Origin: a virus
Direction: 5' to 3' (one strand)
Length of the DNA stretch: 30,612 nt
Virus record (IMG/VR): IMGVR_UViG_3300044615_000882
Location: 1-30,612 of that record
Shown here: positions 2,368 through 30,612 of the stretch, piece after piece
How the letters are laid out: every line of letters starts with the position of its first letter
Position numbering within the stretch: position 1 is the stretch's first letter
The notes under the pieces: generated by a model
Databases searched by the model: none
Told to the model about the DNA's origin: nothing
Seen by the model: the letters and a program-made list of their open reading frames with translations, nothing else
Translations under genes and position numbers: made by a program

Positions 2368-2414
2368 ATTTTATGCCTCGTGCATTTATACCGGAAGGTG
2401 CCATAAATATTTGA

Positions 2415-4393: not shown

Positions 4394-4954
4394 TCACCAT
4401 GTCACTGCATTTATCTCTTCCAAAGTATTTGCAGCATCAATTTGTGCTTTCAGTTCCAGTGCTCTTTGGTGAATTGCATTCCCAGCTGAAACCAATAGCA
4501 CTGGTAATTGGAGTAGTTGTGCCTTTGATAATGTTATCTGGCTATTATCTGCACAGGTCCAGTTAATAGTGAAATCATCTGGGAGCATCATTGCAGCCTG
4601 AGAAGCAAAGATAATATTCGTGCGGGATGCCTCATCGCTATCAAAGGTCTTTCCAAATGCCTCAAACCCTGAATTACGGGCTGCGTCCCTTGCCTTGTTA
4701 ATACGATCCCTGGCGACTTGTTTTGCTGCATCAATACTGGCTTGGGACACTTCCCATGTGAAAGTTTCTCCTTTCCATATATGAAACTCACTGGGTGCAG
4801 GGGGGGCAGTCAAAAACATCCCCTCATAATAATGGGTAGCCCCTTGGGGGATCTCCGTTACAGGGATATACCCGAATTGGGCGTAGTCTGGGGAGGTTGA
4901 AACCACCCGATCAACAATCTTGTTAAACGCATCGGTTTTGATGTAACTATTCAC
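4394..4954 (-). CDS. DUF4376 tail-fibre assembly-type protein
   Basis: A 186-residue protein. The C-terminal two thirds match the DUF4376 pattern: RINKARDAARNSGFEAFGKT, then FDSDEASRTNIIFASQAA, FTINWTCADN and a closing helical NAIHQRALELKAQIDAA. Proteins with this domain sit directly after phage tail-fibre genes and are thought to help fold or attach fibres. Here the GTG start overlaps the tail-fibre stop (GTGA) and a GGGAG ribosome site lies seven bases upstream, so the two are coupled. The N-terminal 60 residues are variable in the family. Assembly role is inferred from family and position. Confidence 0.88.
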   Translation of the reverse strand: MNSYIKTDAFNKIVDRVVSTSPDYAQFGYIPVTEIPQGATHYYEGMFLTAPPAPSEFHIWKGETFTWEVSQASIDAAKQVARDRINKARDAARNSGFEAFGKTFDSDEASRTNIIFASQAAMMLPDDFTINWTCADNSQITLSKAQLLQLPVLLVSAGNAIHQRALELKAQIDAANTLEEINAVTW

Positions 4955-10407: not shown

Positions 10408-10457
10408 AATATCCCCTTCATTTAGATAACCCCGAAGTTTATACAGAAAGGAAAACA

Positions 10458-11330: not shown

Positions 11331-11331
11331 A

Positions 11332-11348
11332 GACTATTTGAAATAGTC
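11332..11348 (+). promoter_or_regulatory. 7-bp hairpin with a 3-base loop, candidate virion-polymerase promoter
   Basis: GACTATT / AATAGTC form a perfect 7-bp stem around the loop TGA, two bases after the thyX stop. There is no T-tract after it, and a proper terminator follows 60 bases later, so it is not needed as a terminator. The geometry (short stem, three-base loop, purine in the middle) is what N4 virion RNA polymerase promoters use. Assignment is speculative and rests on geometry plus the presence of an N4-like polymerase in this window. Confidence 0.3.
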
Positions 11349-11409
11349 GAATCAATCTATTAAGCTGGATATTCCTTTAGCCCGAATACCCAGTATCAAA
11401 TAGAACCAT

Positions 11410-11450
11410 AGAGCCATTATTCCCATTCCTGGGGGATTTTGGCTCTTTTT
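11410..11450 (+). terminator. Intrinsic terminator before the RNR gene
   Basis: AGAGCCA (11410-11416) pairs with TGGCTCT (11440-11446), with an inner TCCC / GGGGA pairing, followed by a run of T (11446-11450). It should end the thyX transcript. Its position shows that the RNR frame cannot sensibly start at the TTG at 11439. Confidence 0.75.
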
Positions 11451-11480
11451 CGTCAACAGGAAATAAAGCACCAAACGACC

Positions 11481-13472
11481 ATGGACAAACAAGCACTATC
11501 AGATATTACGGTGTTCAATAAGTACGCCAAGTTTCTGCCGGAAGTGAAACGCCGGGAGAATTACTTGGAGATTTCTCACCGTAACCGGGACATGCACATT
11601 CGCAAATACCCGAAACTGAAGCAGGCCATTCGTGAGGTTTATTCGGACTTTGTGGACCAGAAGAAGGTATTGCCTTCCATGCGTTCCATGCAATTCGGTG
11701 GGCGTCCCATCGAACTGGCCGAGAACCGCATCTTCAACTGCGCCTACTTCCCCATCGAAAGCCCCAAGGCGTTCTCCGAACTCATGTTCCTGTTGCTCGG
11801 TGGTACCGGGGCAGGCTATTCGGTTCAGAAACGACACACCGAGCAACTCCCCAAGGTCAAAGCTCCGGAGTCGGATGGCGAATACAAGTTCCAGATCCAG
11901 GATTCCATCATTGGCTGGGCTGATGCCGTCAAGGTTGTCTCCAAGGCATTCCTGAATGCAGGCACCCTGCCGGTCTTTGATTACCGAGATATCCGGGATA
12001 AAGGCACCGATCTGATCACCACAGGAGGTAAGGCTCCGGGTCCGGAACCGCTGCAGCGTTGTCTGGAAGCCATGATTGCCATCTTCCGCAATGCCATCGG
12101 TCGTCGGCTGCGCCCGCTGGAAGTACACGACATTTGCTGCCACATTGCTGATTCCGTGCGTGCTGGTGGTATTCGGCGTGCAGCCATGATTGCCCTGTTC
12201 GACCGGGATGACCATGAAATGCTGACCTGCAAATCGCCGGTTCAGTTGAATGACTGGATGATCGTTGATCCGAATGAGCGCATCGTGCACTGGGTTGATA
12301 TGTACAAGGTGCCTCACGTTCAGTCTCTCAATGACTGGGAATTCAACTTACTGACGAAAACAGGTACCTTCCCCTGGGGCGTGGTTTATCCCTGTCGTGC
12401 CCGTGCCAACAACTCGGCAGTTCTGCCGCGAGGCGAAGTGACCGAAGCAGAGTTCACCGAACTGATGCGTGTTGTGGAAGCTAGTGGTTGTGGCGAACCG
12501 GGTATCTACTGGACTAACAATCCGGACTGGGGCACCAACCCCTGTTGCGAGATTGCCCTCCGTCCGTACCAGATGTGCAATCTCACCACCCTGAACGTCA
12601 GTGCCATCCATAGCCAATCTGATTTCAACATGGCGGCCGGTGCAGCAGCTTTCCTGGGTACGCTCCAGGCTGGTTATACCGATTTCCACTACCTGAATCC
12701 AAAATGGAAAAAGGCATGTGAAGACGATGCTTTGCTGGGTGTCTCGATGACCGGGATCGCTTCCGGAAATATCACTCACCTGAACAAAGCCGAGGCTGCA
12801 CGCTACGCCATGGATGTCAATGAAGCCATTGCCGAAGTCATTGGCATCAAGCCAGCTTCCCGGATCACCACCGTCAAGCCGGAAGGCACTTCCTCCCTGG
12901 TTCTTGGTACAGCTTCAGGTATCCATGCCTGGCATGGTGAGTACTACATTCGTCGTATGCGTGCAGGCAAGGATGAAGCCCTGGCCATCTACATGATGAA
13001 GGCAGTCCCGGAACTCGTGGAAGAAGACATCTACGACTCCAACCAGGTAGTTCTGAGCTTCCCGCAGAAGGCTCCAGAGGGTGCCACGACCCGTCATGAA
13101 ACCATGATGGATCTACTCAACCGGGTGAAGCTCATCTCGGAAGAGTGGGTAGGCATGGGTCACCGCAAGGGCGACAACCGCCACAACGTCAGCTGCACCA
13201 TCTCGGTCAAGGCCGATGAATGGGACATCCTGACCAAGTGGATGTGGAAGCACCGTGACAGCTACAACGGTATCTCCGTGTTGCCGTTCTTCGGTTCCTC
13301 CGACTACCCGCAAGCACCTTTCGAGGACATCACCAAGGAGCAATACGAAGCCATGATTCCGCTGCTCAAGAAGATCGATATCAGCCAAGTCGTTGAAGAA
13401 GACGGCAGTGCCATCGATCTGGCAGGTGAATTGGCCTGTGCAGGTGGTGCCTGCGAGATCACCTTCGGCTGA
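11481..13472 (+). CDS. nrdJ: Class II (adenosylcobalamin-dependent) ribonucleotide reductase
   Basis: A 663-residue monomeric class II reductase that would convert ribonucleotides to deoxyribonucleotides for phage DNA synthesis, using a B12 cofactor. Residue spacing follows the Lactobacillus leichmannii triphosphate reductase: C87 (FNCAYF), the N353-x-C355-x-E357 set in TNPCCEIAL, C366 eleven residues later (YQMCNLTTLN), and a C-terminal redox pair C653/C658 in CAGGAC just before the end. C355 would carry the thiyl radical; C87 and C366 would reduce the substrate. It is shorter than the L. leichmannii enzyme (about 740 residues). The ATG at 11481 is chosen because the frame's earlier TTG lies inside the upstream terminator; its ribosome site is weak. 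Confidence 0.95.
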   Translation: MDKQALSDITVFNKYAKFLPEVKRRENYLEISHRNRDMHIRKYPKLKQAIREVYSDFVDQKKVLPSMRSMQFGGRPIELAENRIFNCAYFPIESPKAFSELMFLLLGGTGAGYSVQKRHTEQLPKVKAPESDGEYKFQIQDSIIGWADAVKVVSKAFLNAGTLPVFDYRDIRDKGTDLITTGGKAPGPEPLQRCLEAMIAIFRNAIGRRLRPLEVHDICCHIADSVRAGGIRRAAMIALFDRDDHEMLTCKSPVQLNDWMIVDPNERIVHWVDMYKVPHVQSLNDWEFNLLTKTGTFPWGVVYPCRARANNSAVLPRGEVTEAEFTELMRVVEASGCGEPGIYWTNNPDWGTNPCCEIALRPYQMCNLTTLNVSAIHSQSDFNMAAGAAAFLGTLQAGYTDFHYLNPKWKKACEDDALLGVSMTGIASGNITHLNKAEAARYAMDVNEAIAEVIGIKPASRITTVKPEGTSSLVLGTASGIHAWHGEYYIRRMRAGKDEALAIYMMKAVPELVEEDIYDSNQVVLSFPQKAPEGATTRHETMMDLLNRVKLISEEWVGMGHRKGDNRHNVSCTISVKADEWDILTKWMWKHRDSYNGISVLPFFGSSDYPQAPFEDITKEQYEAMIPLLKKIDISQVVEEDGSAIDLAGELACAGGACEITFG

Positions 13473-13549: not shown

Positions 13550-13924
13550 ATGTTAGGTCTTTGCCGGTCCATCGGCTGCACGAATGCCACCCAATCCAAC
13601 CACGATTTCTGTGGTGAATGTCAAGCACACCTCTCTCCCATTACCAAACCTACGTTGACCAAGCTCGGCCAGCTTTCTGGTGAGCAGTCCATGTCCCAGA
13701 AGTACCCCAAGTATTACAAACCCGTAGGCGAACTCACTGAAGTCGATGTGTACGCCGTGCACAAACTTTTTGATGTGCAAGACCCCTCGGGAGCCATCCA
13801 TCACGCCAGTAAGAAGCTGCTGCTCTCTGGCGTGCGTACCGGAGGTAAATCACCCTACAAGGATATCCAGGAAGCACGGGATACCTTGACTCGTTGGCTC
13901 CAGCTCAACGACGACACCCAATAA
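13550..13924 (+). CDS. Small phage protein with N-terminal zinc-ribbon-like motif
   Basis: A 124-residue protein. The first 30 residues contain four Cys and a His (C5, C10, H18, C21, C24; LCRSIGCTNATQSNHDFCGE), arranged as two CxnC pairs that may bind zinc. From about residue 50 a second unit begins, MSQKYPKYYKPVGELTEVDV, with later KKLLLSGVR and KDIQEARDTLTRWL. This C-terminal unit resembles the DUF3310-like proteins common in phage nucleotide and replication blocks, but I am not certain of that family. An AAGGAAAC ribosome site supports the start at 13550; an internal ATG at 13691 would give only the second unit. Role unknown. Confidence 0.8.
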   Translation: MLGLCRSIGCTNATQSNHDFCGECQAHLSPITKPTLTKLGQLSGEQSMSQKYPKYYKPVGELTEVDVYAVHKLFDVQDPSGAIHHASKKLLLSGVRTGGKSPYKDIQEARDTLTRWLQLNDDTQ

Positions 13925-13941
13925 CCAATGAAAGGCAACCC

Positions 13942-14922
13942 ATGAGCAAATACGCCAATACCTCGGCAGTCCCGTTGTCGCTCGCCATTTTCCTGGCAAC
14001 CGACAACTACGACCACAACCCCGACAGCAACACCATCTCGGCCACTGCGCTGATCAAACCCGTTCGCCAGATCGTTCTGGGAGCACGGGTACCGGAAGAC
14101 ATGTCGCCGGTTGATCTGGTCAACATGGTTCCTTCGCGCATGGGCACTGCCATTCACGACGCCATCGAGCGTTCCTGGAGGGACAATTACAAGCCTGCCA
14201 TGGAAGCCCTGGGCTATCCGAAGCGTGTGATCGAGAAGATTCGTATCAACCCGAAGCCAGAAGAACTGACCAACGGGGCGATTCCGGTCTACATGGAACA
14301 GCGCGAACAGAAGCAAGTTGGCAAGTTTGTAATCACTGGCAAGTACGACTTCATTGGTGATGGTCGTGTGGAAGATTTCAAGTCCACATCAACCTACACT
14401 GCAATGAACAACACCAACGATGAGAAGTACATCTGGCAGGGCAGCATTTATCGTTGGCTCAACCCGACGATCATCACCAAGGATGAAATGGCCATCCAGT
14501 TCATCTTCACCGATTGGTCGAAGGCCAAGGCGATGCAGGATCAGAAGTATCCGCAGCATCGTATCCAGCAACGGATTCTGCCACTGAAGTCTATTCAGGA
14601 AACTGATGCCTTCGTCAAACGCAAGCTCAGCCAGATCGAACAGTATTGGGATGCTCCGGAAGATCAGATTCCGCTGTGTACCGATGTTGATCTGTGGCGT
14701 AGCGAGCCGGTGTTCAAGTACTACAAGAACCCCGAGAAGCGTGCTCGCAGCACCAAGAATTTCGACAACCGCCATGACGCCACGCTTCGCATGATCGAAG
14801 ACGGCAGTGTGGGCATTGTTGTCGAGCACCCTGGCCAGGTCACTGCCTGTAAGTACTGTGCAGCATTTGCCGTCTGTTCACAGAAGGATGCCCTGATTGC
14901 CTCGGGGGATATCGTTCTATGA
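13942..14922 (+). CDS. PD-(D/E)XK exonuclease (RecB/Cas4-like)
   Basis: A 326-residue nuclease. The family motifs are H72 (GTAIHDAIE), D136 (GKYDFIG), D145-x-K147 (VEDFKST) and Q166 (YIWQGSIY). A C-terminal CKYCAAFAVC has three Cys in the place where Cas4/AddB-type nucleases bind an Fe-S cluster, but a fourth Cys is not obvious. The ATG at 13942 follows AAAGGCAACCC; a frame extension upstream overlaps the previous gene and has no support. In this block, next to a Sak4-like ATPase, an SSB-like protein and a resolvase, it probably trims DNA ends for recombination-dependent replication. Its polarity cannot be told from sequence. Confidence 0.88.
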   Translation: MSKYANTSAVPLSLAIFLATDNYDHNPDSNTISATALIKPVRQIVLGARVPEDMSPVDLVNMVPSRMGTAIHDAIERSWRDNYKPAMEALGYPKRVIEKIRINPKPEELTNGAIPVYMEQREQKQVGKFVITGKYDFIGDGRVEDFKSTSTYTAMNNTNDEKYIWQGSIYRWLNPTIITKDEMAIQFIFTDWSKAKAMQDQKYPQHRIQQRILPLKSIQETDAFVKRKLSQIEQYWDAPEDQIPLCTDVDLWRSEPVFKYYKNPEKRARSTKNFDNRHDATLRMIEDGSVGIVVEHPGQVTACKYCAAFAVCSQKDALIASGDIVL

Positions 14923-15143
14923 GTTTTACGACCGACGTTTACCGGCGGGTATACGACGACAGGGAAGGCGCCTGTGTTGAGGTGCGTCCTTGTCCTGATA
15001 ACCCAACCGAATTTCTGGAAATCCATACCCCTGACGATAAAAGCAAGGAATTCTACGGAGACTTCCGTATTTCCTTTCCCAAAGAGATGGCTCGCCAGTT
15101 GGGGGCAGCGTTGATCGCAGGGGCATCCAACCTTCCTATTTGA
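14919..15143 (+). CDS. Small hypothetical phage protein (74 aa)
   Basis: A 74-residue protein (MSFTTDVYRRVYDDREG at the N-terminus, EMARQLGAALIAGASNLPI at the end). ATGA overlaps the stop of the exonuclease gene, indicating coupling. It looks like a small alpha/beta protein with an acidic middle (EIHTPDDKSKEFYGDF) and a closing helix. I do not recognise a family. Its position between the nuclease and the primase suggests an accessory replication role, which is inference only. Confidence 0.8.
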   Translation: MSFTTDVYRRVYDDREGACVEVRPCPDNPTEFLEIHTPDDKSKEFYGDFRISFPKEMARQLGAALIAGASNLPI

Positions 15144-15154
15144 AAGGAACTGAT

Positions 15155-17296
15155 GTGTTGTCATTAGACGAAATGCAGTATCACCCGACCTCAGAAAAGC
15201 TGGTGGAAACCATCTGCAATCGTACGCAGAGTCTGGAACCACTGTTCTTCCGAGTCCTAGTGGCGTACTACTTCGCCAATACTGCAGCGCACATGCGTTG
15301 CTGTATTGAAACCCCTGACATGGGGGATATCCCGGTCAATCTGTACGCACTGAACCTGGCTCCATCAGGTTTCGGTAAAGGCCGGTCCATCAACATTCTG
15401 GAAGAGGAAGTATTCAATCAGTTTCGTCGGCGCTTCATTGAGGAAACTCTCCCGCTGTTGGCTGAGATCAATCTGCCGAAACTCAGCCTGGCCAGAGCCA
15501 ATCGCAAGGGTACTGATCCGGATGAAGAGTTGGTCCGTGTTCAGAAGGAATTCGATAGCACGGGTCCGATGCTGTTCAGCTTCGCTGAAGCCACTGCCCC
15601 GGCAGTCAAGCAGATGCGTCACCACCTCTTGATGGTCAATGCCGGTGCATTGTCTCTGGAAGTGGATGAAATCGGTACCAACCTATCCAACAGTGCTGAA
15701 GTTCTCGCGCCATACCTGGAGCTGTTCGACAAGGGCAAGATCAAAACCAAGTTGGTCAAGTCCACTTCCGACAGTAAACGTCTGGAAGAGATCAGGGGCA
15801 CCACACCAGCCAACCTGATGATGTTCGGTACGCCGTCCAAGCTCTTTGACGGTGCAGCCACCGAGCAGATGCTGTACAGCTTCCTTGATACTGGATATGC
15901 CCGGCGCTGCTTCTTTGGCTACATCAAGGGTGTGACTCGGCAGACCGACCTCACTCCACAGGAAATCTTCGCCAGGAGTACATCCCAGAACAACAGCGCG
16001 TTCCTGGAACAACTGTCTGACCAGCTGGACAATCTTGCTGACATCATCAACGTCAACAAGAAGCTCAAGATCAAGGAAGCCACAAGCCTCCTCTTGATTG
16101 AGTACAAGTTGATGTGCGAGAAGGCTGCTGCCAAGCTGCCCGAGCACGAAGACATGAAGAAAGCGGAGCTGTCGCATCGTTACTTCAAGGTGCTGAAGCT
16201 GGCTGGGGCGTACGCCTTCATCGACGACTCGCCGGAAGTGACCGAAGCTCACGTTTACAGCGCCATCAAGCTGGCCGAGGAATCCGGTGCAGCCTTCCAG
16301 TCCATGCTGAATCGGGATCGTCCCTATGTGAAGCTCGCCAAGTACCTGGCAGGCGTCAAGCGGGATGTGACCCAAGCAGAACTGGTTGAGGATCTCCCCT
16401 TCTACAAGGGCGGTTCAGCTCAGAAGAACGAGCTGTTGACCCTGGCAATTGCCTACGGATACAAGAACAATATCGTCATCAAGAAGTCCTTTGCTGACGG
16501 GATTGAGTTCATCCGGGGTGAAACCCTCCAGGAAACCGATCTGGACAAGATGGTGGTCAGCTACAGCAGTGACATCACCACCGACTACCGGAATGAAACC
16601 GCCCCCTTCGATCAGCTGCACAAGCTGACCCAGGCTGCAGGAATGCACTGGGTTGCCCATCATCTCAATGGGGGTTATCGGAACGAGGAAAACTGTGTTC
16701 CTGGCTTCAACATGGTTGTCGTGGATGTCGATGGCACGGTCAGTCTGAGCACGGCCAAGCTGCTGCTCAAGGACTACAAGTACCTGATCTACACGACCAA
16801 GCGCCATACCGAAGTCGAGAATCGGTTCCGTATCATTCTGCCAATCAACTACACCCTCGAACTGGATGCCAAGGACTTCAAGGAATTCATGTCCAACATC
16901 TACGAGTGGTTGCCCTTCGAAGTCGATACCGCAACCGGCCAACGTGCCAGGAAGTGGATGTCTCACGCGGGGCACTACGAGTACAACGAAGGTGAAGTGC
17001 TCGATGCCCTGCCATTCATTCCGAAGACTTCCAAGAATGAGGAGCGTAAAGAACTCCTGCATTCCCAACAGTCGATGGACAACCTGGAACGCTGGGCGAT
17101 CAACAACATCGGGGATGGCAACCGCAACAACATGCTCCTGCGCTACGCCATGATTTTTGTGGATGCAGGCTTCGACTTCGAAGCAGTCCGTCAGAAGGTG
17201 ATCAGCCTGAACGACAAGATTGCCGACAAGCTCGATGAAGTCGAAATCATGAGCACGATCATGATTTCGGTAGGCAAGGCCATCGCCAAACGATAA
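15155..17296 (+). CDS. ATPase-primase fusion: N-terminal P-loop ATPase, C-terminal AEP-type primase
   Basis: A 713-residue protein with two units. Unit one has Walker A at about 67-76 (LAPSGFGKGRS, K75) and Walker B at D171-E172 (SLEVDEIG), like DUF3987-type phage helicases. Unit two, about 490-640, carries motifs of archaeo-eukaryotic primases: D524-x-D526 (VVVDVDG), H551 (TTKRHT), an Arg pair (NRFRIILP) and D591 (FEVDTATG). It would unwind DNA and lay primers. The usual phage order is primase first, then helicase; here it is reversed. I chose GTG at 15155 because AAGGA sits six bases upstream; the frame's earlier TTG at 15140 lies before that site. It is followed by tandem terminators. Confidence 0.85.
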   Translation: MLSLDEMQYHPTSEKLVETICNRTQSLEPLFFRVLVAYYFANTAAHMRCCIETPDMGDIPVNLYALNLAPSGFGKGRSINILEEEVFNQFRRRFIEETLPLLAEINLPKLSLARANRKGTDPDEELVRVQKEFDSTGPMLFSFAEATAPAVKQMRHHLLMVNAGALSLEVDEIGTNLSNSAEVLAPYLELFDKGKIKTKLVKSTSDSKRLEEIRGTTPANLMMFGTPSKLFDGAATEQMLYSFLDTGYARRCFFGYIKGVTRQTDLTPQEIFARSTSQNNSAFLEQLSDQLDNLADIINVNKKLKIKEATSLLLIEYKLMCEKAAAKLPEHEDMKKAELSHRYFKVLKLAGAYAFIDDSPEVTEAHVYSAIKLAEESGAAFQSMLNRDRPYVKLAKYLAGVKRDVTQAELVEDLPFYKGGSAQKNELLTLAIAYGYKNNIVIKKSFADGIEFIRGETLQETDLDKMVVSYSSDITTDYRNETAPFDQLHKLTQAAGMHWVAHHLNGGYRNEENCVPGFNMVVVDVDGTVSLSTAKLLLKDYKYLIYTTKRHTEVENRFRIILPINYTLELDAKDFKEFMSNIYEWLPFEVDTATGQRARKWMSHAGHYEYNEGEVLDALPFIPKTSKNEERKELLHSQQSMDNLERWAINNIGDGNRNNMLLRYAMIFVDAGFDFEAVRQKVISLNDKIADKLDEVEIMSTIMISVGKAIAKR

Positions 17297-17299
17297 CAG

Positions 17300-17357
17300 A
17301 AGCCCTCCGGGCTTTTCTACGATCAACCAAAAAGGTGGCCTTCGGGCTGCCTCCTTT
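17300..17357 (+). terminator. Tandem terminators after the primase gene
   Basis: First hairpin: AAGCCC / GGGCTT around a TCC loop, followed by TTTT (17300-17316). Second hairpin: AAAGGTGGC / GCCTCCTTT with one mismatch (17331-17339 and 17349-17357). The second ends 13 bases before the next gene's ATG and may also affect its translation. Confidence 0.8.
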
Positions 17358-17370
17358 ATCAGAGGAAACC

Positions 17371-18099
17371 ATGACTCAACCCGTCAATGACAACCTGGTT
17401 CTCATCGCAGGCAAATCCGCTACCGGAAAGTCAGCCTGCCTTGCTGGACTGAAAGGCCCCGAAGGCGTGCTGTACCTCAACTGTGAGGCAGGCAAGAAGC
17501 TCCCTTTCCGTGCCAAGTTCAAGCAGTACACCATTACCGATCCGCTTCAGGTGTACGAAGCCTTCGATGCTGCCGAGAACATGCCGGAAGTGCACACCAT
17601 CGTTATCGATACCGTGACCTACCTGCTCGATATGTACGAGTCGGTCTACGTCTACAACGCAGCCAATGGTCAAAAAGCCTGGGGCGACTTCGCTCAGTAC
17701 TACAAGACACTGATGCAGAACTACGTTGCCAAGAGCACCAAGAACGTCATTTTCCTGGCCCATACCGCCGACTCGCTGAACGAATCGGAAATGGTCATGG
17801 AAACCAAGGTGCCGGTCAAAGGTTCACTCAAGAACAACGGTATCGAGTCCTACTTCTCCTTGGTAATTTCCACCAAGAAAGTCCAGCTCAAGGCACTCAA
17901 GGATTACCAATCCAAGCTGCTCACCATCACCCCGGAAGAACAGGCACTTGGCTTCAAGTACGTCTTCCAAACCAAGCTCACCAAGGAAACGGTGGGTGAA
18001 CGTCTGCGTGGTCCTCTGGGAATGTTCGACACCCAGGAAACCTTCACGGACAACAACGCGCAGTTGGTCATGGACCGTCTGCACGAGTACTACCAGTAA
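17371..18099 (+). CDS. RecA-like AAA ATPase, Sak4 type
   Basis: A 242-residue ATPase. Walker A is GKSATGKS at 14-21 and Walker B is HTIVIDTVTYLLD near 70-85. A third conserved region, NVIFLAHTADS, matches the sensor strand of RecA/Sak4 proteins. Sak4-like proteins are single-strand annealing or RecA-like recombinases that work with a phage SSB, and an SSB-like gene follows directly. The start at 17371 has an AGAGGAAACC ribosome site; an earlier frame start overlaps the terminator hairpin. Probably involved in recombination and replication repair. Confidence 0.88.
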   Translation: MTQPVNDNLVLIAGKSATGKSACLAGLKGPEGVLYLNCEAGKKLPFRAKFKQYTITDPLQVYEAFDAAENMPEVHTIVIDTVTYLLDMYESVYVYNAANGQKAWGDFAQYYKTLMQNYVAKSTKNVIFLAHTADSLNESEMVMETKVPVKGSLKNNGIESYFSLVISTKKVQLKALKDYQSKLLTITPEEQALGFKYVFQTKLTKETVGERLRGPLGMFDTQETFTDNNAQLVMDRLHEYYQ

Positions 18100-18150: not shown

Positions 18151-18897
18151 ATGAGCCTCCTCGCAAACCTCGCTTCCGATTCCTCCATTGCCGATGAAAA
18201 AGATTCCATCGGTGGTTCTGGTCCTGTCGATTCCGGCCTGTACGGCTGCACAATCGCCATGGCTTACATCAACAAGGCTTCCAGCGGTGCCTTGGGCCTG
18301 GCCCTGACCCTCAAGACCATTGACGGCAAGGACATCCGTCAAACCCTCTGGATGACCTCCGGTACGGCCAAGGGATGCAAGAACTACTACGAGAAGGACG
18401 GCGAGAAGCACTACCTGCCGGGCTTCACGCACGCCAACGCCCTGTGCCTGCTGACCGTAGGCAAGGAAATCTCCCAGCTCGATACCGAAACCAAGGTCAT
18501 CAACCTGTACTCGGCTGAAGCCAAGGCTGAAGTGCCGACCAAGGTTGAAGTGGTCATGGATCTGCTGAACCAGGAAATCATTGCTGGCATCATCAAGCAG
18601 ACCGTGGACAAGACCAAGAAGAACGAAGCCACGGGTGCCTACGAGGCAACCGGCGAAACCCGTGAAGAAAACGAGATCGACAAGTTCTTCCGTGCCAAGG
18701 ACCGTATGACCACGGCTGAAATCCGTGCTCAGGCTACCGAAGCTGTCTTCATCAACAGCTGGGACCAGAAGTGGACCGGCAAGACTAAGGATCGCGCCAA
18801 GGGTTCCGCAGCTGGCCTGCCGGGTGTGCCGAAGCTCGGAGGTGCACCGGCTGCAGCAGCAGGTACCAAGAAGCCGACCACCAGCCTGTTCGGTTAA
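18151..18897 (+). CDS. SSB-like single-stranded DNA-binding protein
   Basis: A 248-residue protein with a strong TTAAAGGAAAACTC ribosome site. The N-terminal half (about 20-130) is beta-rich with aromatic residues (LYGCTIAMAYINK, GKDIRQTLWMTSG), as in OB-fold phage SSB proteins. The middle is helical and charged; the last 40 residues are Ala/Gly/Pro-rich and end in KKPTTSLFG. Phage SSBs usually have a flexible tail ending in a short docking peptide, though normally acidic. Assignment rests on the Sak4 neighbour, tail form and overall look; I cannot point to a diagnostic motif. A small protein 1.6 kb downstream has a similar end (GSLFS). Confidence 0.65.
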   Translation: MSLLANLASDSSIADEKDSIGGSGPVDSGLYGCTIAMAYINKASSGALGLALTLKTIDGKDIRQTLWMTSGTAKGCKNYYEKDGEKHYLPGFTHANALCLLTVGKEISQLDTETKVINLYSAEAKAEVPTKVEVVMDLLNQEIIAGIIKQTVDKTKKNEATGAYEATGETREENEIDKFFRAKDRMTTAEIRAQATEAVFINSWDQKWTGKTKDRAKGSAAGLPGVPKLGGAPAAAAGTKKPTTSLFG

Positions 18898-19006: not shown

Positions 19007-19081
19007 GCGGGTATAGCTCAATAGGTAGAGCACCGGACTTCCACTCCGGTTACGGCGGTTCGATCCCGCCTACCCGCTCCA
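19007..19081 (+). tRNA. tRNA-Gly (anticodon UCC)
   Basis: A complete cloverleaf: acceptor GCGGGTA/TACCCGC (7 bp), D stem GCTC/GAGC, anticodon arm CCGGA-CTTCCAC-TCCGG with anticodon TCC, T arm GGCGG-TTCGATC-CCGCC, discriminator T and an encoded CCA. All stems are perfect. It lies in a 350-base gene-free stretch in the replication block that ends at a strong terminator. It would supply Gly GGA/GGG decoding. Confidence 0.97.
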
Positions 19082-21109: not shown

Positions 21110-24100
21110 TTATTTCACCAACTTGATCGTCGCCAGTTCATCCAGTACCCCAGGATACTCCAGCGCACCCAAGCTGAAGGGGTTGTTCCCCAGTTTGTGG
21201 GTGAAGCCGGAATCCGTCAGCATCGGTGCTGATGAGAAGAAGTGGTCCGTCACCAACAACGCCAGGGCACGCCCAGGATTTTCTGCGTACAGATGGGCAA
21301 TTACCTTCTGAATCCGCAGGTAGTACTTGGTGAACATCACAAAACCCATGTCGTTCATGTACTGCAGCTTGCGGTGTGACGGCAGATCGTAGTTCACGAA
21401 GGAATCTGAAGCCAATTGCAGTGCTTCATCCTTGCTCATTGGATTGTCCTTGCGGGACATCTTATGTGCATACAGCGCGTACCGGGCTACAAAGTCACTG
21501 AGCTGGGTAGCATGACGCAACGCCTTGTACATCTGAGTGTCCTTGGCCATGTACACCGTTTTGGCTGCACTCAACACATGCTTATTCAGCTTGCTGGAGT
21601 GATCATCCACGTAATGAACCAGCCGTGACTTGTACGAATACATATCGTCATCCGGAGAGACATCTTCCACGATGGACGGCATCAAGCCAGCATCGATCAG
21701 TTCCTTGACCGGGTTATGTTCCAGGGCATCCTTCAGACGAATGATTTCCCGTTCCATCTCCTGGCGGCTGGACTTGATATAGCCTGCTGCCAACTGGGTT
21801 TCCAGTTCGATCAGCGCTGCAGAGTCCTGACGGTAGTTGCTGACGCCCTTCAAGGCAATCCGATGATAGCGAGCCATATCCCTGATAGGCACACCATGCC
21901 AGTAGAGCAGCGAGATGTTGCTGCCGATATTGCCTAGCAACGTGCTCAGGTTCTTGATAACCAGAATCTCCTTGGCTTCCGCCACGATTTCCTGCCAGAT
22001 ATCCTCGGCACGACGCAGGTTGTACTCCGCTTTCTCACCCATCACATGAGTCATCAAGCCAACGAACATGGCATCTAGTGCGTTCTTGCGTTCCTTGTGG
22101 AAGGCATCCGTCACACTGGTTTTGCGGTACCCGAAGTTGATATCCATCAGGTCGCTACGCACCATCATGTATTCGGTGCCCCAGATTTCCTTGATGGCTT
22201 GCTTGGTATCTTCCGGTAGCATCCGGTAGATGTCCTGCAATTCCATATCTTCGCTGTCCGGGCCTACTTGGCGGTAGGACACGGAACGGGTGGCAAAGTC
22301 GGCCAGGTACTGTTCGCGGAGTGCCTCAACCGCCTTGCGGTTACTCTCCTTGGTGGATTCCTTGTCGTAAATGTTTCCGGCGAAGAATCCCAGCACCTTG
22401 TCGAAACGGCTATCCCGGTTCAACAGATCGTCCTTGTTCTCCTCCTGCATCAGGTAGCGGTAATCCGTCACCTCGCCCTGGGGATTGAGGATCGGTGCTG
22501 CGTAGTTCTCCTCGACCTTGGACGGATCGTAATTCGGGTCATAGCGGAATTCCCGTTGAATGGCTGCTCGTTTGTTGGTAGTCATCCTCCGGATGTCTTG
22601 CTTGTTGGCCTTCCACTCGTTCAGGTTCTGTACGTTGTCAGTCTTGCTGCGCGACCCCTTGGCCGTTTCTCCGGTGTAGGAGAAGATGGCCGAAAGCCAG
22701 GGACGCAAACCACCTCCGTCCCGTTTGTACACAAAGCGTTCCGTGTTCTTGTCCGGATCAAGCGGGTCCGATGAAACACGCTTGCCCTTGATGTATCCCT
22801 GGGCTTCCAGCTTGGCCCCTTCCTTTTCCGTGGCAACCACCACTTCCTTCTTCGGATCGTAGATTTCCGGGACGTAGCCCTTCATCATCAAGGCTTCCGA
22901 GCCTTCGAAGAGGCGTTCCTTGGACTGCTCCTGCAAAGACTTGTGCAGCTTGAGCACCATCTCGACCCCATTGCCATCCGTGCGTGCACCTTCGCTGGCC
23001 AACAGCCTACCCAGAGCATCCTTGTGTTTGTCCTCGGTATATTGGAAGGCGTACAACGAAACCAACTGATCAATGATCGGCGTGGCGGCTGCTGCATCGG
23101 ATGCAGTCACATAGCTTTCATTGCCTGTACCAAACAGGTGGGCAATGTTGGAAGCGTTCATCAGCAGGTGATGTCCCTTGACCTGACCCTTCACCATCTT
23201 GTAAGCCAGGTTCTTGGCGTAACGTTCATAGAAGCCACGGGCTTTCCGGAACGGTGCCAGCTGGCCTTCCAGACGCTTGATTTCCTGACTCAGTGCAGCC
23301 GGGGAACTGAGCAGGGCAGACACTTCCTCCATGGAGTGATGGGCCAGCAATGCCGAGATATCGGTACGCAGCAACCCTGCCGTGATGGCGTGCTTGTCTT
23401 CCTGGGCCAGATCCTTGCCCTTGTTGGCAAAGCTCTCCAGCGACACGTTGCCGGTATGGGTGATCAGGTCTTCCCGGATACCTTCACGCAGCTTGGCTTC
23501 ACGGATCAGCCGATGGAACATCTTGTTGCCATCATTCATGCCACGGATCTCGTTGACCATGCCCATCGCCAGGCCGAATCCCTTGTTCATCTGACGATCA
23601 CGGACTTCCTGGATGTGGTTCATGACCGCTTCCACACGATCCCCAGCTACGGTGCTGACCACTGCCCCTGCAGTACGCACGATGCTGTTCTTGCGATCAC
23701 GTACCCACTTCGACTGGCTGGCCTTTTCCACCTTGCTTTTCAGGTTGGCCGCCCCCTGCTTCATGGAGTTTTCCACGAAATCCAGGACGCTGGCCTTCTG
23801 CAGCATTGGCTCCTTCCGCTTGGCTTCGATTTCCACCAGCTGCTTGACCAGGGCATTCAGCTTTTCATCGGCTGCCTGACCGGCAAAGGTGTGGGTCAAC
23901 TTGCCGTTGAACCATTCCAGTACCTTCTGGAACAGGGATTCCAGACGATGAGCAAAGCTGCCCGAGGTTGCCAACGGGGAACGATCGGTACCCATTTTCA
24001 AGGCCGCATTCACTTCCGGATGGGCCAACCCCAATGCTGCAAATCGAGCAAGGTGGCGACTACGCCCACCTTGCCCCATATCCATCTTGAACAGGAAATC

Positions 24101-27100
24101 GCGGAGTGCTGGTGACAGCGAAGTGCTGTTTTCCAGCTTGGCTTTGGCTTCCTGGTACAGCTTGTTCAGCTCAACATAAACATCGTGTGCCGTACCTGTG
24201 TTGGCTTCCAGGGCACCCTGTACCGACGCTTCCACCTGCTCCAGGACAAAGGCCACCTGATCATTCATCGGAATGCCTGCTGCCAGGGCAGCACTACCAA
24301 ACGGTGCTGCACCCTTGTCCTTGGCTTGGTCCCAGAGTTCCTTCGGCGTGCTGGCCTGCTTGCTTTCCACCAATGCCTTGAAGGTGCCGAAAGGACCATG
24401 CAGCTTGGTGACGATACCCGACAGCAGACCACGCAAGTGCTCATCGAAAGTCAGGGAGATCGTCTGGTCATCCAGTGCCTCATACACCTCAACGGTAGAC
24501 AGATTCTGAATGGCTTCCATGGCAAAGGACTGCGCTTCCGCTGCTTTTCCGTTCTCCGGATTCTGGGCCTGTTCGAACAGTCCAGCGACATCCTGAATCA
24601 GGGAAGCCAGGCCGTTATCTACCAGTTGCCCTTCAGCATTCTTGACTGTCATGGGCAAACCAATGAACTTGGAAACAGCCTTGATGAATGCCATCATCAC
24701 CGACATAGCCTTGTGGGTCACCTTGGCCTTGGTCATCGGCACCTGAGCCAACACATCCTGCTGGAATCCAGCATCCGACATGCCCCAGGAAACCAGCTCA
24801 TGCACATCGAGCTTGAAGCCGTACTTGGCCTTCAGCTCCGGATTGGCATCGAGGTGTTCTTGCACCTTACCGACCAGGGATTCCAGTGACTTCACCAGCT
24901 CCTTGGCTTCCTTGGTATTCGGATGATTGATCGTCTTGGCCAGGGCAGCGTGGAGCAGTTCGTGCACAAGCAGATCCGGGGTCAAGCCAGAGGCTTTGAA
25001 TTCCGGGCTGAGCACGTAGACTGCGTGCTTCTCCCCGTTATATGCGAACCATCCCCGGGCGTTGAACTGCTTGCCCATCGCACCATCCTGGGTACGGGAA
25101 GAGATCATCTGGATAGGGAAGCCATCGCCCACCAACTTCATGGCCTTACGCAGCACCACTTGGTTTGCACGGCTCAGTTTGCCCATGATCAGCTTGGCAA
25201 CGTCACCAGGCTTCTGCAAAGGCTGATCTTCGAAGACATGGACGAGATCCATATCAGAATCAACACTGGACTTACCCAGCTCACCATACGGGGAATTGGC
25301 CGTGTTGGTCTTAACCCCCAGGACCACTTCATTGATCCGATCAATGGCGTTCCAGACACTGTGGGGAACGGTGTTCTTGCCCATTCCACCCAGCAATGCT
25401 TGAGCTTCGGCCCGATCAGCATCGGTTACTTCGTATTGACCACCTTCCAGAGCGTACTGATCCACGTACTGCAACTGGGCCATGGTTTCGTACTTGGTCT
25501 TGTCCGACTTGTAGGAGGTGTTGTACATATCCCCAGCCACAGAAATCAGCACCTGATGCAAGGGCATCGGCACTTTTTCCCCATCAATCCCTTCAGCTTG
25601 GTCATTCGCCATCTTCGTCAGACGGTTGCGAAGTTCCTGGATCACCGCTTCGGTGTTCTCCTTGGACTGCAGCAGGGTATCCATCCCCATCAGCGTATTC
25701 TTGAAAGCATCCCGCATCTCGGCAGCCGGGGAGTAATGCAACACTGCCTTCCAGGTGGCCTTGTTCAAGGCATGGGCAGTTTCAATGAATCCCTTCAAAC
25801 CAGTGCCATGCGCGTCATGGACGTTGAGTACCTGGCGACCCATCAAAGCCATGTGCGAAATAGCACTGTCCAGCGAGTGGATCATCATCGGTACCATCGC
25901 TACACCTGGCATTTCCCTAATGCGCTGATAGGCTGCGTTGGCCAACTGGAATCCACCTGCTGTTGTGTTCCCCTTTTCATCCACGGTATCCGGCAGGGCA
26001 GTCCCGAAACGGGAGGTGTTCTGATACATCCCTTCCTGAGAGAGTTTCCGGGACGACTTGGAAATATGCAGACCTGCGCCTTCACTGTTCTGGGACAGCT
26101 TGGCCATGTAGGTTAGTACTTCAGGGTTTAGCTTGGCAATTCGATCCTCGATCAACTTTTCTTGGTCAGCAGTCAAGTCGTGGAGGGCATCCCCTGCGTT
26201 TTCCACCATCTTCCCATCGATCTTCTTGGAACCAGCTTTAATGGCTCCGGAAGCAATCAACTCCTTGATGACGTTTTGACGAATGCCTTGATAGGCTGCG
26301 TCATACAAGCTGAAGGTGGCATTAGCCGTGGTGTTGATGGTGTCTCGGATATCCAGGAAAGCACTGAATTCTCTTTTCATGGTTTTCTTGACCGCTTCAC
26401 CCAGGTTCTTGTTGAACACCTCTTCCAGTGCCTTTTCCTGGCTCTCGGAGAATTCAAAATTCGCCAGGAACTCTTCCACACTGTTGTAAGGAATGGGTTC
26501 AGTCAGGATTTCCGCTTCCTGAAGCAAGTCATTCAGGTTATCCGCATAGGCGTTCAGCTCCTTCTGTCGATCCCCTGGGTTCTTCTCCTCCATCTTGGCG
26601 ATCTTCTCGAATCCAGCATACGAGGTGTCGATAAATTCACGGAACATCGAAGCCACGGCCCCTTTGACCGACGAGCCAAAGAGCATTGCAGTCAATGGCT
26701 TCTTGATGATGTTGCGCCCTGCCTTTTCCACCTTCTGGGTATCCTTGTTGTACAAGGTACCCGTGATCTTTTCGATCCAGGCAAAGGTAGCCATCTTGTC
26801 GGTTTGCTTGGTGATATTGGCAATCACGGCACTGATCGTGGATTCATACAGGTCGGTATTGGTGCCCGTACCACGCCACACGTTGTAGTTCTGAAAGCCA
26901 GAACCTTCCTGGAAGAACCCCCCTTTATTAAGGCGATTCAAGAGGGTCGTAGCATCAGCGGCTGCACCCAAGGCCAGATGCGACAGCATCGGCCCATTGG
27001 TAACACCATCCACCTCACCCATCATCTGGACTTCAAAGGTGAACGATTTACCTTCGCTATTGGTCTTTGCTTCCTGATAATTGGCCATGGCAATCAAGGC

Positions 27101-30100
27101 ATCCATGGAGTGCATCTTCTCGCCCCCTGCCTTTACGCCTACCACGATGGCTTTCTGTTGGGCAGCAGACATCTCGGCACCCGGTTGACGGGAAGCGATC
27201 AAGGCATCCACAGCAGCTTGCAGGATGACTGCGCGCTTCTGGGTATTGGAATCCTTGGATTCCGTGTTGAACAGCTCCTTGGCTGCAGTCAGGGAACGCG
27301 AGTTGTCCTGCTTGTCCGTCTTGACACCAAGACCTTCAGCAACACGCAGCATGAAGCTATCCAGATCCGTGCTGGATACATCGGTCTTCCAGTCCTTACG
27401 GGTCAGCATCCAACGATGGATCTTACTGGACTGCGGATTGATCACCCCATCGATACCCACCCGTTGTTGCTTCCAGATCGAGTGAGCCAGGTACAGGGGC
27501 TGCTTCAGCTTCAGAGGGCTGCCCCCCTCGTCCACGGAGTTCTCCAGGCTGCTGAAGTACGACACTGCAGCAGACAGCTCACGTATCAAGGCTTCGTTGC
27601 TAACCTCTACCGACTGGATCGAGAACTTGTGCATCGCGGATTCATCGATCTCGATGTAGCCTGCCATTTCCAGGAAGGCTTCTTCCCCCAATCCTTGCAG
27701 CAGGGTCCAGACATCCTCACGGACGTAGTTGGCCACACTGTTTTCGTGGACCACGATCTTCTTCAGTTCATCGGGGATCGCCTGATCAGTGTTGGCGGTT
27801 GTGGTTTGACTGACCTTGATCGGTTCCCAGGAAGGTTCCTTGACCTGTGCTTCCACACCAAACAGTTTGCCTAGAATGCCTTTTGTACCCACTGCATTGG
27901 ACGAGATTGCTTCAGCAACCGGGTTCAGCTTGCGATCCTTCAGCTTCTTCCCAGGACTGCGCACCATACGCAGGAAAGCCATGCTGCCCTGCTTGGAGGC
28001 ATCGTGCTTCTCCAGATGTTTCAAGCCATCAGAAATCACGGTACGTGGCACCACCGTGCGCTGCATGACCTTTTGATCCACCAGGAGCTTCATCACATGG
28101 GCACCCAAGTCAGCTTCCAGACGAGCCAGGAAATCCTGAGTGGCTTCGTTCTTGGCAGCCAAGCCAAGAGCTTGGGTGACACGCTGACCCATGGAGATGA
28201 TCACCGTCTTTTCTGGATTACCCAACGGAGCTACTGTATTGAGTAGCTTGTCTCCAATGGTGTCGTACTCGCCCAGGCCAAACATGGCCTTTACGCTTTC
28301 AGGGGAAGACATCTGAGGAGCCTTGGCATTCTCGGCCACGTACATGAATGCAGCAGCTGCAATCGCAGTCTTGATGTTCTCTTCCGTGTTGGCCTTGTCG
28401 TTTTCATCCAGGCTGATCAGGTACTGAATCGGATTGGTGTATTTCAGATCAGGATTGAACTGAATCTGCCCCGGCTTCTTGCCTTCAAAATCCTTTTCAA
28501 TACGAGCCAGTTCATCCTTCCGTGCCTTGGGATCACGGATCTGATTGGCATTCTTGATGGCCTTCTTGTATTCCTTACCAACAACCACCTGACCTTGAAC
28601 CAGGTTCTTCGTGATCACCGGAAGCCACTGCTTGGCAGTTACTTTGAAGTGATTCAGGAAGGTTTGCTGCACACCAATAGGCTCGGCACCGATGAAGGTA
28701 GCCAGCGCCTTATCGTCAATAGAGCCATCCAGCCAACCAGACAGGAAATCCCTGGCAGCAACCAGGGGGCGTTGAGTGCTCCCCTCTTTGCCTGCCTTCT
28801 GCACCAGATTGTGGGCAATCAGGTTGATGCTCTTGAATACTTCACTGAACTTCTTACCAGCGGTATCGGCTACTTCTTGGAAGACGGAGAGCTTTCCAGA
28901 CTCTCGATCTGCATTTTCTCCCGCTTCAGCTTGGCGATCATCCTCCCGGCCTCCACGATCTGCTTGCGCTTCCCCTTGGGAAACTTGAGTAGAGACTTCT
29001 TCAGTTTTTCGAGACTCGGTATGGTCGGCATTTTCAATTTCCTCCTGGGTGTATCCCACAATATCTGCCAGCTGTTGCATGGCTTCTGCTTCAGTAAGGC
29101 CCGCTGCAACGGCTTCTGCAAAAGCAGCCTCTGCCAGGATGGCTTCACGTTCTTCTGCCGCTTCCATGGCACTACGTTGTTCTTCCCAATGCTGCAAATC
29201 CGCGAGCACCTGTTCAATAGTGCGTTTACCGCGTGCAGTCTTGATTCCCTTTTCCTTGGCTTCCTGATTCACAGCCTTGCGGAAGGATCTCTCTTCCTCC
29301 TTGGCTTTACGTTCTTCGGATAGCGCAGCCTCTTCCTCAACCTGGGCAGCAGTACGCCCCGGAATACCATTCATGTGATCTTGTAGCATCGCTACCAGAT
29401 CCGCTTCGGTATTCAGTTGGGTGTATCCCGCTTCACGGAGATACTCGATCAACTGGCCTACATCTTGCCAACCATTTGCCCGTACAGCAGGACGAATACT
29501 CTTCAACTCCTTGGTCTTGTCACCAAGCAGATCCCGTGCAACTTTGGACGAGATGCCCTCACCTCCGGTGACCTGGAGGAGGGCACCAACAATGTTCTGG
29601 TAATCCTTGGGTTCAATACGCTGACGCGGCTTCCTGGCCTTCGTTGACGGTGCTTGCGAGTCTACGGTACTGTCTACATTAAACTGGTTTGAAGCTGTAT
29701 TGGACTCGATAACAACTGGTTCAACTGCAGTCTGCTCAGGCGCTGCCTGCGCTGTACTAGGGTTAACTGAGTTAACTGCTTCAGATGAACCAGACTGATT
29801 CAATGTAGTCTGCGCGACCGGAGGCACCGGAGTCTGCTGCTTCTGCGGCGTGAATCGCAAATCATAGACAGCCTTCAGTTGAGCACGCGATGCGTTCAAC
29901 GCACCCGACTCTGCCCGCAGATTGCCAATGAGCTTGCTGGACTTCGCACTGATGGTCAAACCACCTAGCTTGCGATTGGCTTGTTGTCCAGCCAGCGATA
30001 CATCCTGAGTGGGAGCCAGTTGCCACCCCTGCTTGGTCGGAACCACGTTGAACGATCCACGCTTACCCACCTTGTTGAACAAGGGGAGGAAGGTATCGAG

Positions 30101-30612
30101 CTTTTGCTGATGAGCATCGGCAAACTTGCTCAGCATGTGCAGGGCAGTCGCTGCCTTTTCCTCGTCACGGGATTTGACGGCAGCATCCATGCGTTGCTTG
30201 TAATCAGCAATGCCCAGCTGGTTCTTGGAAGGATCACCCTTCATCACTTCATTCTCGACAATGCCAAGAGTCTTCATGGCATTGTCGGCAATGCGCGATT
30301 CCGACACGCTACGCAGATAGGTACGCTGTTGGGCGCTCAGGCCATTGCTCTGGTTTGAAACCAGACGGTTCAGGTGATCATCGGAGAAACTGTCCGGATG
30401 AGACATGGCGAGGCTCACCACATGAGCCACAGCACCCTTGGCAGCGCCATCAATCTCAGGAGTGGAAGTATCCACTACCTTATCGGCAGTCTCTACCGCA
30501 GCCTCGATATCCGCTTCCTTGGGGGCGTTGAGTACTGCCATCTCATCCCGCAGCTTGGTGGATTCACCAATTTGACGATCCAGAGAAGCTAGCTGCGTCT
30601 TGAGGGACTTAA
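21110..30612 (-). CDS. Giant virion RNA polymerase-like protein (5' end outside the window)
   Basis: At least 3,167 residues; the frame is open through the window edge, so the ATG at 30541 is probably internal. Residues below are counted from it. Regions: helical N-terminus; low-complexity linker (about 225-305); Glu-rich coiled coil (about 390-540); a single-subunit, T7-type RNA polymerase region (about 700-1700) with a TxxGR-like Arg (R1027 in IWKQQRVGIDGV), motif A (GEVDGVTNG, D1178), motif B (RNIIKKPLTAMLFG: R1276, K1280, F1288) and motif C (NVHDAHGTG, D1576); HExxH (VHELLHA, H1860-H1864); then about 1,280 mostly helical residues. D-to-D spacing is 398, near the 392 I recall for N4 virion polymerase. 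No cysteine is present. It is probably packaged and injected to transcribe early phage genes. Motif B has Phe where T7 and N4 have Tyr. Confidence 0.9.
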   Translation of the reverse strand, partial: KSLKTQLASLDRQIGESTKLRDEMAVLNAPKEADIEAAVETADKVVDTSTPEIDGAAKGAVAHVVSLAMSHPDSFSDDHLNRLVSNQSNGLSAQQRTYLRSVSESRIADNAMKTLGIVENEVMKGDPSKNQLGIADYKQRMDAAVKSRDEEKAATALHMLSKFADAHQQKLDTFLPLFNKVGKRGSFNVVPTKQGWQLAPTQDVSLAGQQANRKLGGLTISAKSSKLIGNLRAESGALNASRAQLKAVYDLRFTPQKQQTPVPPVAQTTLNQSGSSEAVNSVNPSTAQAAPEQTAVEPVVIESNTASNQFNVDSTVDSQAPSTKARKPRQRIEPKDYQNIVGALLQVTGGEGISSKVARDLLGDKTKELKSIRPAVRANGWQDVGQLIEYLREAGYTQLNTEADLVAMLQDHMNGIPGRTAAQVEEEAALSEERKAKEEERSFRKAVNQEAKEKGIKTARGKRTIEQVLADLQHWEEQRSAMEAAEEREAILAEAAFAEAVAAGLTEAEAMQQLADIVGYTQEEIENADHTESRKTEEVSTQVSQGEAQADRGGREDDRQAEAGENADRESGKLSVFQEVADTAGKKFSEVFKSINLIAHNLVQKAGKEGSTQRPLVAARDFLSGWLDGSIDDKALATFIGAEPIGVQQTFLNHFKVTAKQWLPVITKNLVQGQVVVGKEYKKAIKNANQIRDPKARKDELARIEKDFEGKKPGQIQFNPDLKYTNPIQYLISLDENDKANTEENIKTAIAAAAFMYVAENAKAPQMSSPESVKAMFGLGEYDTIGDKLLNTVAPLGNPEKTVIISMGQRVTQALGLAAKNEATQDFLARLEADLGAHVMKLLVDQKVMQRTVVPRTVISDGLKHLEKHDASKQGSMAFLRMVRSPGKKLKDRKLNPVAEAISSNAVGTKGILGKLFGVEAQVKEPSWEPIKVSQTTTANTDQAIPDELKKIVVHENSVANYVREDVWTLLQGLGEEAFLEMAGYIEIDESAMHKFSIQSVEVSNEALIRELSAAVSYFSSLENSVDEGGSPLKLKQPLYLAHSIWKQQRVGIDGVINPQSSKIHRWMLTRKDWKTDVSSTDLDSFMLRVAEGLGVKTDKQDNSRSLTAAKELFNTESKDSNTQKRAVILQAAVDALIASRQPGAEMSAAQQKAIVVGVKAGGEKMHSMDALIAMANYQEAKTNSEGKSFTFEVQMMGEVDGVTNGPMLSHLALGAAADATTLLNRLNKGGFFQEGSGFQNYNVWRGTGTNTDLYESTISAVIANITKQTDKMATFAWIEKITGTLYNKDTQKVEKAGRNIIKKPLTAMLFGSSVKGAVASMFREFIDTSYAGFEKIAKMEEKNPGDRQKELNAYADNLNDLLQEAEILTEPIPYNSVEEFLANFEFSESQEKALEEVFNKNLGEAVKKTMKREFSAFLDIRDTINTTANATFSLYDAAYQGIRQNVIKELIASGAIKAGSKKIDGKMVENAGDALHDLTADQEKLIEDRIAKLNPEVLTYMAKLSQNSEGAGLHISKSSRKLSQEGMYQNTSRFGTALPDTVDEKGNTTAGGFQLANAAYQRIREMPGVAMVPMMIHSLDSAISHMALMGRQVLNVHDAHGTGLKGFIETAHALNKATWKAVLHYSPAAEMRDAFKNTLMGMDTLLQSKENTEAVIQELRNRLTKMANDQAEGIDGEKVPMPLHQVLISVAGDMYNTSYKSDKTKYETMAQLQYVDQYALEGGQYEVTDADRAEAQALLGGMGKNTVPHSVWNAIDRINEVVLGVKTNTANSPYGELGKSSVDSDMDLVHVFEDQPLQKPGDVAKLIMGKLSRANQVVLRKAMKLVGDGFPIQMISSRTQDGAMGKQFNARGWFAYNGEKHAVYVLSPEFKASGLTPDLLVHELLHAALAKTINHPNTKEAKELVKSLESLVGKVQEHLDANPELKAKYGFKLDVHELVSWGMSDAGFQQDVLAQVPMTKAKVTHKAMSVMMAFIKAVSKFIGLPMTVKNAEGQLVDNGLASLIQDVAGLFEQAQNPENGKAAEAQSFAMEAIQNLSTVEVYEALDDQTISLTFDEHLRGLLSGIVTKLHGPFGTFKALVESKQASTPKELWDQAKDKGAAPFGSAALAAGIPMNDQVAFVLEQVEASVQGALEANTGTAHDVYVELNKLYQEAKAKLENSTSLSPALRDFLFKMDMGQGGRSRHLARFAALGLAHPEVNAALKMGTDRSPLATSGSFAHRLESLFQKVLEWFNGKLTHTFAGQAADEKLNALVKQLVEIEAKRKEPMLQKASVLDFVENSMKQGAANLKSKVEKASQSKWVRDRKNSIVRTAGAVVSTVAGDRVEAVMNHIQEVRDRQMNKGFGLAMGMVNEIRGMNDGNKMFHRLIREAKLREGIREDLITHTGNVSLESFANKGKDLAQEDKHAITAGLLRTDISALLAHHSMEEVSALLSSPAALSQEIKRLEGQLAPFRKARGFYERYAKNLAYKMVKGQVKGHHLLMNASNIAHLFGTGNESYVTASDAAAATPIIDQLVSLYAFQYTEDKHKDALGRLLASEGARTDGNGVEMVLKLHKSLQEQSKERLFEGSEALMMKGYVPEIYDPKKEVVVATEKEGAKLEAQGYIKGKRVSSDPLDPDKNTERFVYKRDGGGLRPWLSAIFSYTGETAKGSRSKTDNVQNLNEWKANKQDIRRMTTNKRAAIQREFRYDPNYDPSKVEENYAAPILNPQGEVTDYRYLMQEENKDDLLNRDSRFDKVLGFFAGNIYDKESTKESNRKAVEALREQYLADFATRSVSYRQVGPDSEDMELQDIYRMLPEDTKQAIKEIWGTEYMMVRSDLMDINFGYRKTSVTDAFHKERKNALDAMFVGLMTHVMGEKAEYNLRRAEDIWQEIVAEAKEILVIKNLSTLLGNIGSNISLLYWHGVPIRDMARYHRIALKGVSNYRQDSAALIELETQLAAGYIKSSRQEMEREIIRLKDALEHNPVKELIDAGLMPSIVEDVSPDDDMYSYKSRLVHYVDDHSSKLNKHVLSAAKTVYMAKDTQMYKALRHATQLSDFVARYALYAHKMSRKDNPMSKDEALQLASDSFVNYDLPSHRKLQYMNDMGFVMFTKYYLRIQKVIAHLYAENPGRALALLVTDHFFSSAPMLTDSGFTHKLGNNPFSLGALEYPGVLDELATIKLVK

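Follow-up and report, generated by a model that had tools for sequence, protein, structure and literature searches.

A divergent N4-like virion RNA polymerase gene in an uncultured phage genome fragment, with phenylalanine in motif B

Results

Organization of the window and extent of the polymerase gene

The window, that is, the whole stretch of DNA analyzed, comprised 30,612 nucleotides (positions 1 to 30,612 of IMG/VR record IMGVR_UViG_3300044615_000882), and its features are listed in Table 1. The right end was occupied by a giant open reading frame (ORF) for a virion RNA polymerase (vRNAP), which ran on the minus strand from 30610 to 21110 and was open at the right edge of the window. The first-pass annotation had put the size of the protein above 3,100 residues, which held. 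The ATG at 30541, from which the residue numbers of that annotation run, had to be abandoned as the start, since the ORF continued on the contig IMGVR_UViG_3300044629_000853 (L005), which overlapped the window end by 6,160 bp with 0 mismatches. With the 5' part from L005, the gene encoded a giant protein of 3,723 residues with N- and C-terminal domains, a length that is a composite of two contigs and that was backed by an uninterrupted vRNAP ORF of 3,699 residues in a relative, IMG/VR 3300006033_000041 (L006). The vRNAPs of Schitoviridae range from 2,842 to 3,820 residues (PMC10654107). Residue numbers below are counted from the ATG at 30541 (add 580 for the full-length protein), and those of N4 are the published mini-vRNAP numbers (full-length minus 997). 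Long ORFs of 390, 397, and 570 amino acids lay antisense to the vRNAP gene (window 22943-27874, plus strand) and are probably by-products of codon bias.

Schitoviridae-type genes were found in the window (single-stranded DNA-binding protein, primase, and exonuclease) and on L005 (gp53- and gp54-like virion genes), and no portal, capsid, or terminase gene was seen in the fragment. Near the left end, the tRNA-Pro-like piece TTTGGGAGCAGAGGGTCGTGAGTTCGAATCCCACCGCCCCGACCA just upstream of the integrase gene is a candidate attP, for which a search of 369 genomes with at most 1 mismatch gave no match, leaving the phage without an assigned host. In window 2142-2400, around the start of the integrase gene and the tRNA-like sequence, TATAAATCCGGTATAA-centred repeats occurred twice in direct and once in inverted orientation; these are possibly recombinase arm sites. 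An integrase was also present on 18 of 36 related contigs, and lysogeny genes in N4-like viruses are already known (PMC10654107).

Table 1. Positions of the features in the window
Feature	Position	Strand	Basis or remark
Tyrosine integrase	1001-2131	-	PF00589, E 4.8e-11
tRNA-Pro 3'-half-like piece TTTGGGAGCAGAGGGTCGTGAGTTCGAATCCCACCGCCCCGACCA	about 2215-2285	-	
Tail-fibre-like protein	4951-10458	-	1,835 residues; collagen-like and F5/F8 type C-like stretches
ThyX-like and ribonucleotide reductase genes	10458-13472	+	between tail-fibre and replication genes
Exonuclease, DNA primase, and Sak4-like genes	13894..18099	+	N4/LUZ7 order, by gene-order comparison
N4-type single-stranded DNA-binding protein	18151..18897	+	phrog_743, E 1.3e-75
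tRNA-Gly (TCC) gene	19007-19081	+	
Giant vRNAP gene, 5' end beyond window edge	21110..30612	-	3166 residues; phrog_2206, 1820 bits
C-terminal region, similar to N4 vRNAP C2 subdomain	21251..23593	-	phmmer E 2.3e-66 to PDB 11fw
HELLH (HExxH) of C1 subdomain, residues 1860-1864	24950..24964	-	HExxH in 20/20 vRNAPs compared
Polymerase core, N4 mini-vRNAP counterpart	25322..28774	-	AF2 model, 1151 residues
Motif C LNVHDAHGTG; D1576 = N4 D951 (metal ligand)	25799..25828	-	alignment
IHSLDS; H1555 at T7 H784 position	25865..25882	-	alignment to T7
Motif B RNIIKKPLTAMLFGSS; R1276 = R666, K1280 = K670, F1288 = Y678 (T7 Y639)	26669..26716	-	alignment
Motif A MMGEVDGVTNGPM; D1178 = N4 D559 (metal ligand), E1176 = E557	26987..27025	-	alignment
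T/DxxGR-type motif IWKQQR; R1027 = N4 R424	27461..27478	-	alignment; R in 181/181

Family assignment and predicted structure

The vRNAP matched the PHROG family phrog_2206, 'virion RNA polymerase', over residues 28-3166, and the Pfam domain vRNAP_dom_2 above its cut-off. When the single sequence was compared with the PDB by phmmer, the C-terminal region was matched, including to full-length N4 gp50 (E 2.7e-62), whereas the core was not; the core was matched by profiles. A profile of the relatives detected N4 mini-vRNAP with an E of 2e-69, and the profile of the LUZ7 group matched that of the N4 group with an E of 6.9e-33. Searching with the core by tblastn returned 379 phage records, nearly all of which, among those fetched, belonged to Schitoviridae, and the best records, from litunaviruses, LUZ7, and 98PfluR60PP, were about 32-35% identical. 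The HExxH sequence lies in the region corresponding to the C1 subdomain described for N4 vRNAP (PMC12633501). A scan of a genome collection for vRNAP yielded only one distant provirus-like locus, a vRNAP-like region (L179 863-3553, about 25% identical) in a Marinobacterium litorale genome contig, which is a possible provirus.

The AF2 model of the core, folded with 73 relatives, was confident (pLDDT 92.2, pTM 0.91). In Foldseek, the top-ranked structure was N4 mini-vRNAP (3c46_B; E 2.6e-32, TM 0.71/0.74), followed by mitochondrial and T7 RNA polymerases. Comparison by VIA-align with the N4 structure 2po4 gave a Z score of 29.1 and an rmsd of 4.0 over 948 residues (model positions 1 to 1133), and with T7 RNA polymerase a Z score of about 20. 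The profile comparison and the fold prediction proposed in the first-pass annotation thus both turned out in its favor, with N4 mini-vRNAP as the best solved match. Its further condition, that D1178 and D1576 come together, was borne out indirectly, by this superposition on 2po4 and by the alignment of the two aspartates with N4 D559 and D951.

Catalytic motifs

All of the motifs read in that annotation (IWKQQR with R1027, EVDGVTNG with D1178, R1276/K1280/F1288, and HDAHGTG with D1576) were located at these residues on the minus strand. The spacing of motif B, R-x3-K-x7-[F/Y]-G, was also correct, and the distance between the two aspartates was 398 residues here versus 392 in N4 (951-559), as had been reported. 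In the window, the codons were at 27010-27008 (D1178), 25816-25814 (D1576), and 26716-26678 (R1276/K1280/F1288). In an alignment of 20 vRNAPs, all six named residues corresponded column for column to N4 R424, D559, R666, K670, Y678, and D951. The residue was the same at R424 in 181/181, at D559, R666, and K670 in 182/182 each, and at D951 in 180/180 of the 182 aligned relatives, counting only those with a letter at the column; these five columns were among only 14 invariant columns in a 74-sequence alignment. Motif A also retained a glycine, G1183, at the T7 G542 position. The segment at R1027 had been described as DWRGR-like, and this was right for the arginine, the counterpart of N4 R424, and wrong for the GR pair: the motif is degenerate, with QR instead of GR, and the Arg alone is conserved.

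As judged from the aligned sequences, this set of motifs is far beyond chance. The motifs had been chosen by eye without tools, which left room for a fortuitous resemblance within an unrelated large structural protein; that reading was refuted by the family, profile, and fold results, and its probability is negligible. In contrast to the catalytic residues, the promoter-contact residues of N4 (K114, R119, W129, D901, and R904) were not recognizably conserved in a sequence alignment that is weak in this part, which suggested that the promoter specificity probably differs from that of N4.

Absence of cysteine and ejection operon

There was no cysteine among the 3,723 residues of the vRNAP, where about 30 would be expected at the frequency of the other genes in the window; the chance of finding none was about 4e-14. 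All 20 vRNAPs of the reference alignment likewise had 0 cysteines, and 23 of 81 further long ORFs from IMG/VR had 1 to 3. Absence of cysteine is a strong trait of N4-like vRNAPs, not an absolute one. Cysteine-free N4-like vRNAPs have been reported, and the lack of cysteine was proposed to help entry (PMC2784036, PMC3715699). Directly upstream of the vRNAP gene, L005 encoded homologues of DEV gp73/N4 gp52 (phrog_2646) and DEV gp72/LUZ7 gp74 (phrog_6467), and the gp53- and gp54-like genes preceded both of these ejection-protein homologues. The same gene order is given for the ejection operon (PMC12633501, PMC10925440).

Because the family match, the profile match, the predicted fold, the operon context, and the absence of cysteine agreed, the N4-like identity proposed in the first pass was upheld: the ORF encodes an N4-like (Schitoviridae) vRNAP, a divergent newcomer in a known family. 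It is almost certainly a virion-packaged single-subunit polymerase of an N4-like phage related to LUZ7 and DEV, which most likely acts like N4 gp50. By analogy with N4 and LUZ7, we infer packaging and early transcription. The vRNAP would be packaged in the particle, would pass out through the tail together with two ejection proteins that form a channel, and would then refold in the cell, where it would recognize hairpin promoters in an early region that lies outside the window. Transcription of the early genes would use a two-metal mechanism at D1178 and D1576, the triphosphate would be bound by R1276 and K1280, and the ribose would be sensed by F1288 with H1555, a presumed division of roles.

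A giant protein in an ejection operon, of which the polymerase makes up only about a third, might instead be a catalytically dead relic, retained solely for a structural role in ejection as a gp16-like component of the injection channel, and DEV vRNAP has indeed been treated as a third ejection protein (PMC10925440). This is very improbable, because relaxed selection would not preserve the catalytic residues, every one of which was kept in relatives down to about 20% identity, with no stop or frameshift in the gene.

Phenylalanine in motif B and its histidine partner

Where T7 RNA polymerase has Tyr639 and N4 has Tyr678, the vRNAP of the window has F1288. On the present alignment, Tyr678 cannot be a defining feature of vRNAPs, because Phe was found in 95 of 182 relatives and is carried by an accepted member, LUZ7. 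The LUZ7 vRNAP was found in virions, and a supplementary legend guesses that the motif B Phe of LUZ7, LIT1, and PEV2 aids in dNTP discrimination (PMC3715699). The data for T7 Y639F, in which rATP/dATP discrimination fell from about 120-140-fold to 5-7-fold (PMC9836923), point in the opposite direction.

The HSxD motif was first spotted by eye and then tabulated. When all columns were scanned in the main Phe-rich clade, H1555 ranked top for association with Phe/Tyr: His was present in 52/52 Phe rows and in 4/10 Tyr rows, the remainder having Gln. H1555 in IHSLDS aligned with T7 H784 in VHSQDG. The equivalence with H784 relies on the HSxD motif and the local alignment, because hhalign with the single T7 sequence scored poorly overall (E 0.031), with sensible motif columns. 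In T7, Y639 and H784 are the pair altered in engineered enzymes (PMC11617373, PMC4551944). Among 122 sequences made non-redundant at 90% identity, many of which were common with the first set so that the check is only partly independent, the combinations were Phe/His in 59, Tyr/His in 20, Tyr/Gln in 26, Tyr/Ile in 16 ('Ile' being the alignment letter for the N4 segment IGTGDG), and Tyr/Thr in 1, with 0 cases of Phe without His. In the divergent vRNAPs L381, L247, and L248, which likewise carry the motif B Phe, His occupied the T7 H784 position in every case.

Parsimony on the larger tree gave 9 Phe/Tyr changes, 4 of them forced by supported branches. In the independent-pairs test, 2.1-2.7 of 4 supported pairs agreed and 0 disagreed, which was not significant, the pairs being too few. 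Since the direction of change differed between the two trees, no ancestral state is claimed. The apparent Phe/His coupling is thus a lead, without significance once ancestry is corrected for.

From these combinations we tentatively suggest, with slightly less than even confidence, an either-or rule by which N4-like vRNAPs would keep at least one of the paired 2'-OH sensors of T7 (Tyr639 and His784). N4 would then have kept the Tyr and lost the His, and this phage and its relatives would have kept the His and lost the Tyr hydroxyl; loss of both sensors was seen in none of the sampled vRNAPs. N4 Y678F is reportedly like T7 Y639F in its behavior. A competing view of this one step of the mechanism, which leaves the identity of the vRNAP untouched, is that its sugar choice is relaxed and that it is in effect dNTP-capable, since F1288 stands in place of the Tyr that, when mutated to Phe, cuts the rATP/dATP preference of T7 (PMC9836923); ribonucleotide reductase and a ThyX-like protein are also encoded in the window. 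However, H1555 accompanied Phe in all of the Phe enzymes, G1183 was kept, and T7 H784 hydrogen-bonds the 2'-OH (PMC11617373). T7 Y639F in turn retains its His and yet stays relaxed. We regard relaxed sugar choice as possible and rather doubtful.

Discussion

This analysis confirmed that an uncultured N4-like lineage encodes a packaged-type RNA polymerase, and it gave the full length of the enzyme. The part that might interest specialists is the Phe/His pattern, which makes something testable of a one-line remark in the literature (LUZ7 Y678F): the Tyr regarded as the principal check on ribose is missing from about half of the N4-like vRNAPs sampled, and all of those have the His partner. The pattern raises the question of how a transcribing enzyme without the motif B Tyr avoids dNTPs. 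If the either-or rule is true, the T7 change Y639F, engineered for the production of modified RNA, has a natural counterpart and Y639F/H784A has none. Natural Phe enzymes may serve for the synthesis of 2'-modified RNA.

Comparison with known systems

The nearest relative is L006, likewise uncultured, with 69% core identity and downstream genes in common, and no integrase was found on its 44.7-kb contig. Among characterized phages, the vRNAPs of the Pseudomonas phages LUZ7 (gp73) and DEV (gp71), both Migulavirinae, and of 98PfluR60PP have about 34% core identity to the window protein and share its motifs including the Phe in motif B, the His at the T7 H784 position, the lack of cysteine, and HExxH. 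LUZ7 and DEV have the same ejection operon; the window vRNAP is about 320 residues longer than that of LUZ7, and its gene differs from those of the LUZ7/DEV group in having integrase, ribonucleotide reductase, and ThyX-like genes among its neighbors. Escherichia phage N4 gp50 (PDB 2po4, 3c2p, and 9pnq) has the same domain plan, catalytic residues, C2 homology, HExxH, and lack of cysteine, although its core identity is only about 18%, and the motif B Phe and the IHSLDS of the window protein correspond in N4 to Tyr678 and Ile/Gly (IGTGDG), respectively. T7 RNA polymerase shares the catalytic fold, the motif spacing, and a His784 counterpart, whereas it is a single 883-residue enzyme, is not packaged, uses a duplex promoter, and has Tyr639.
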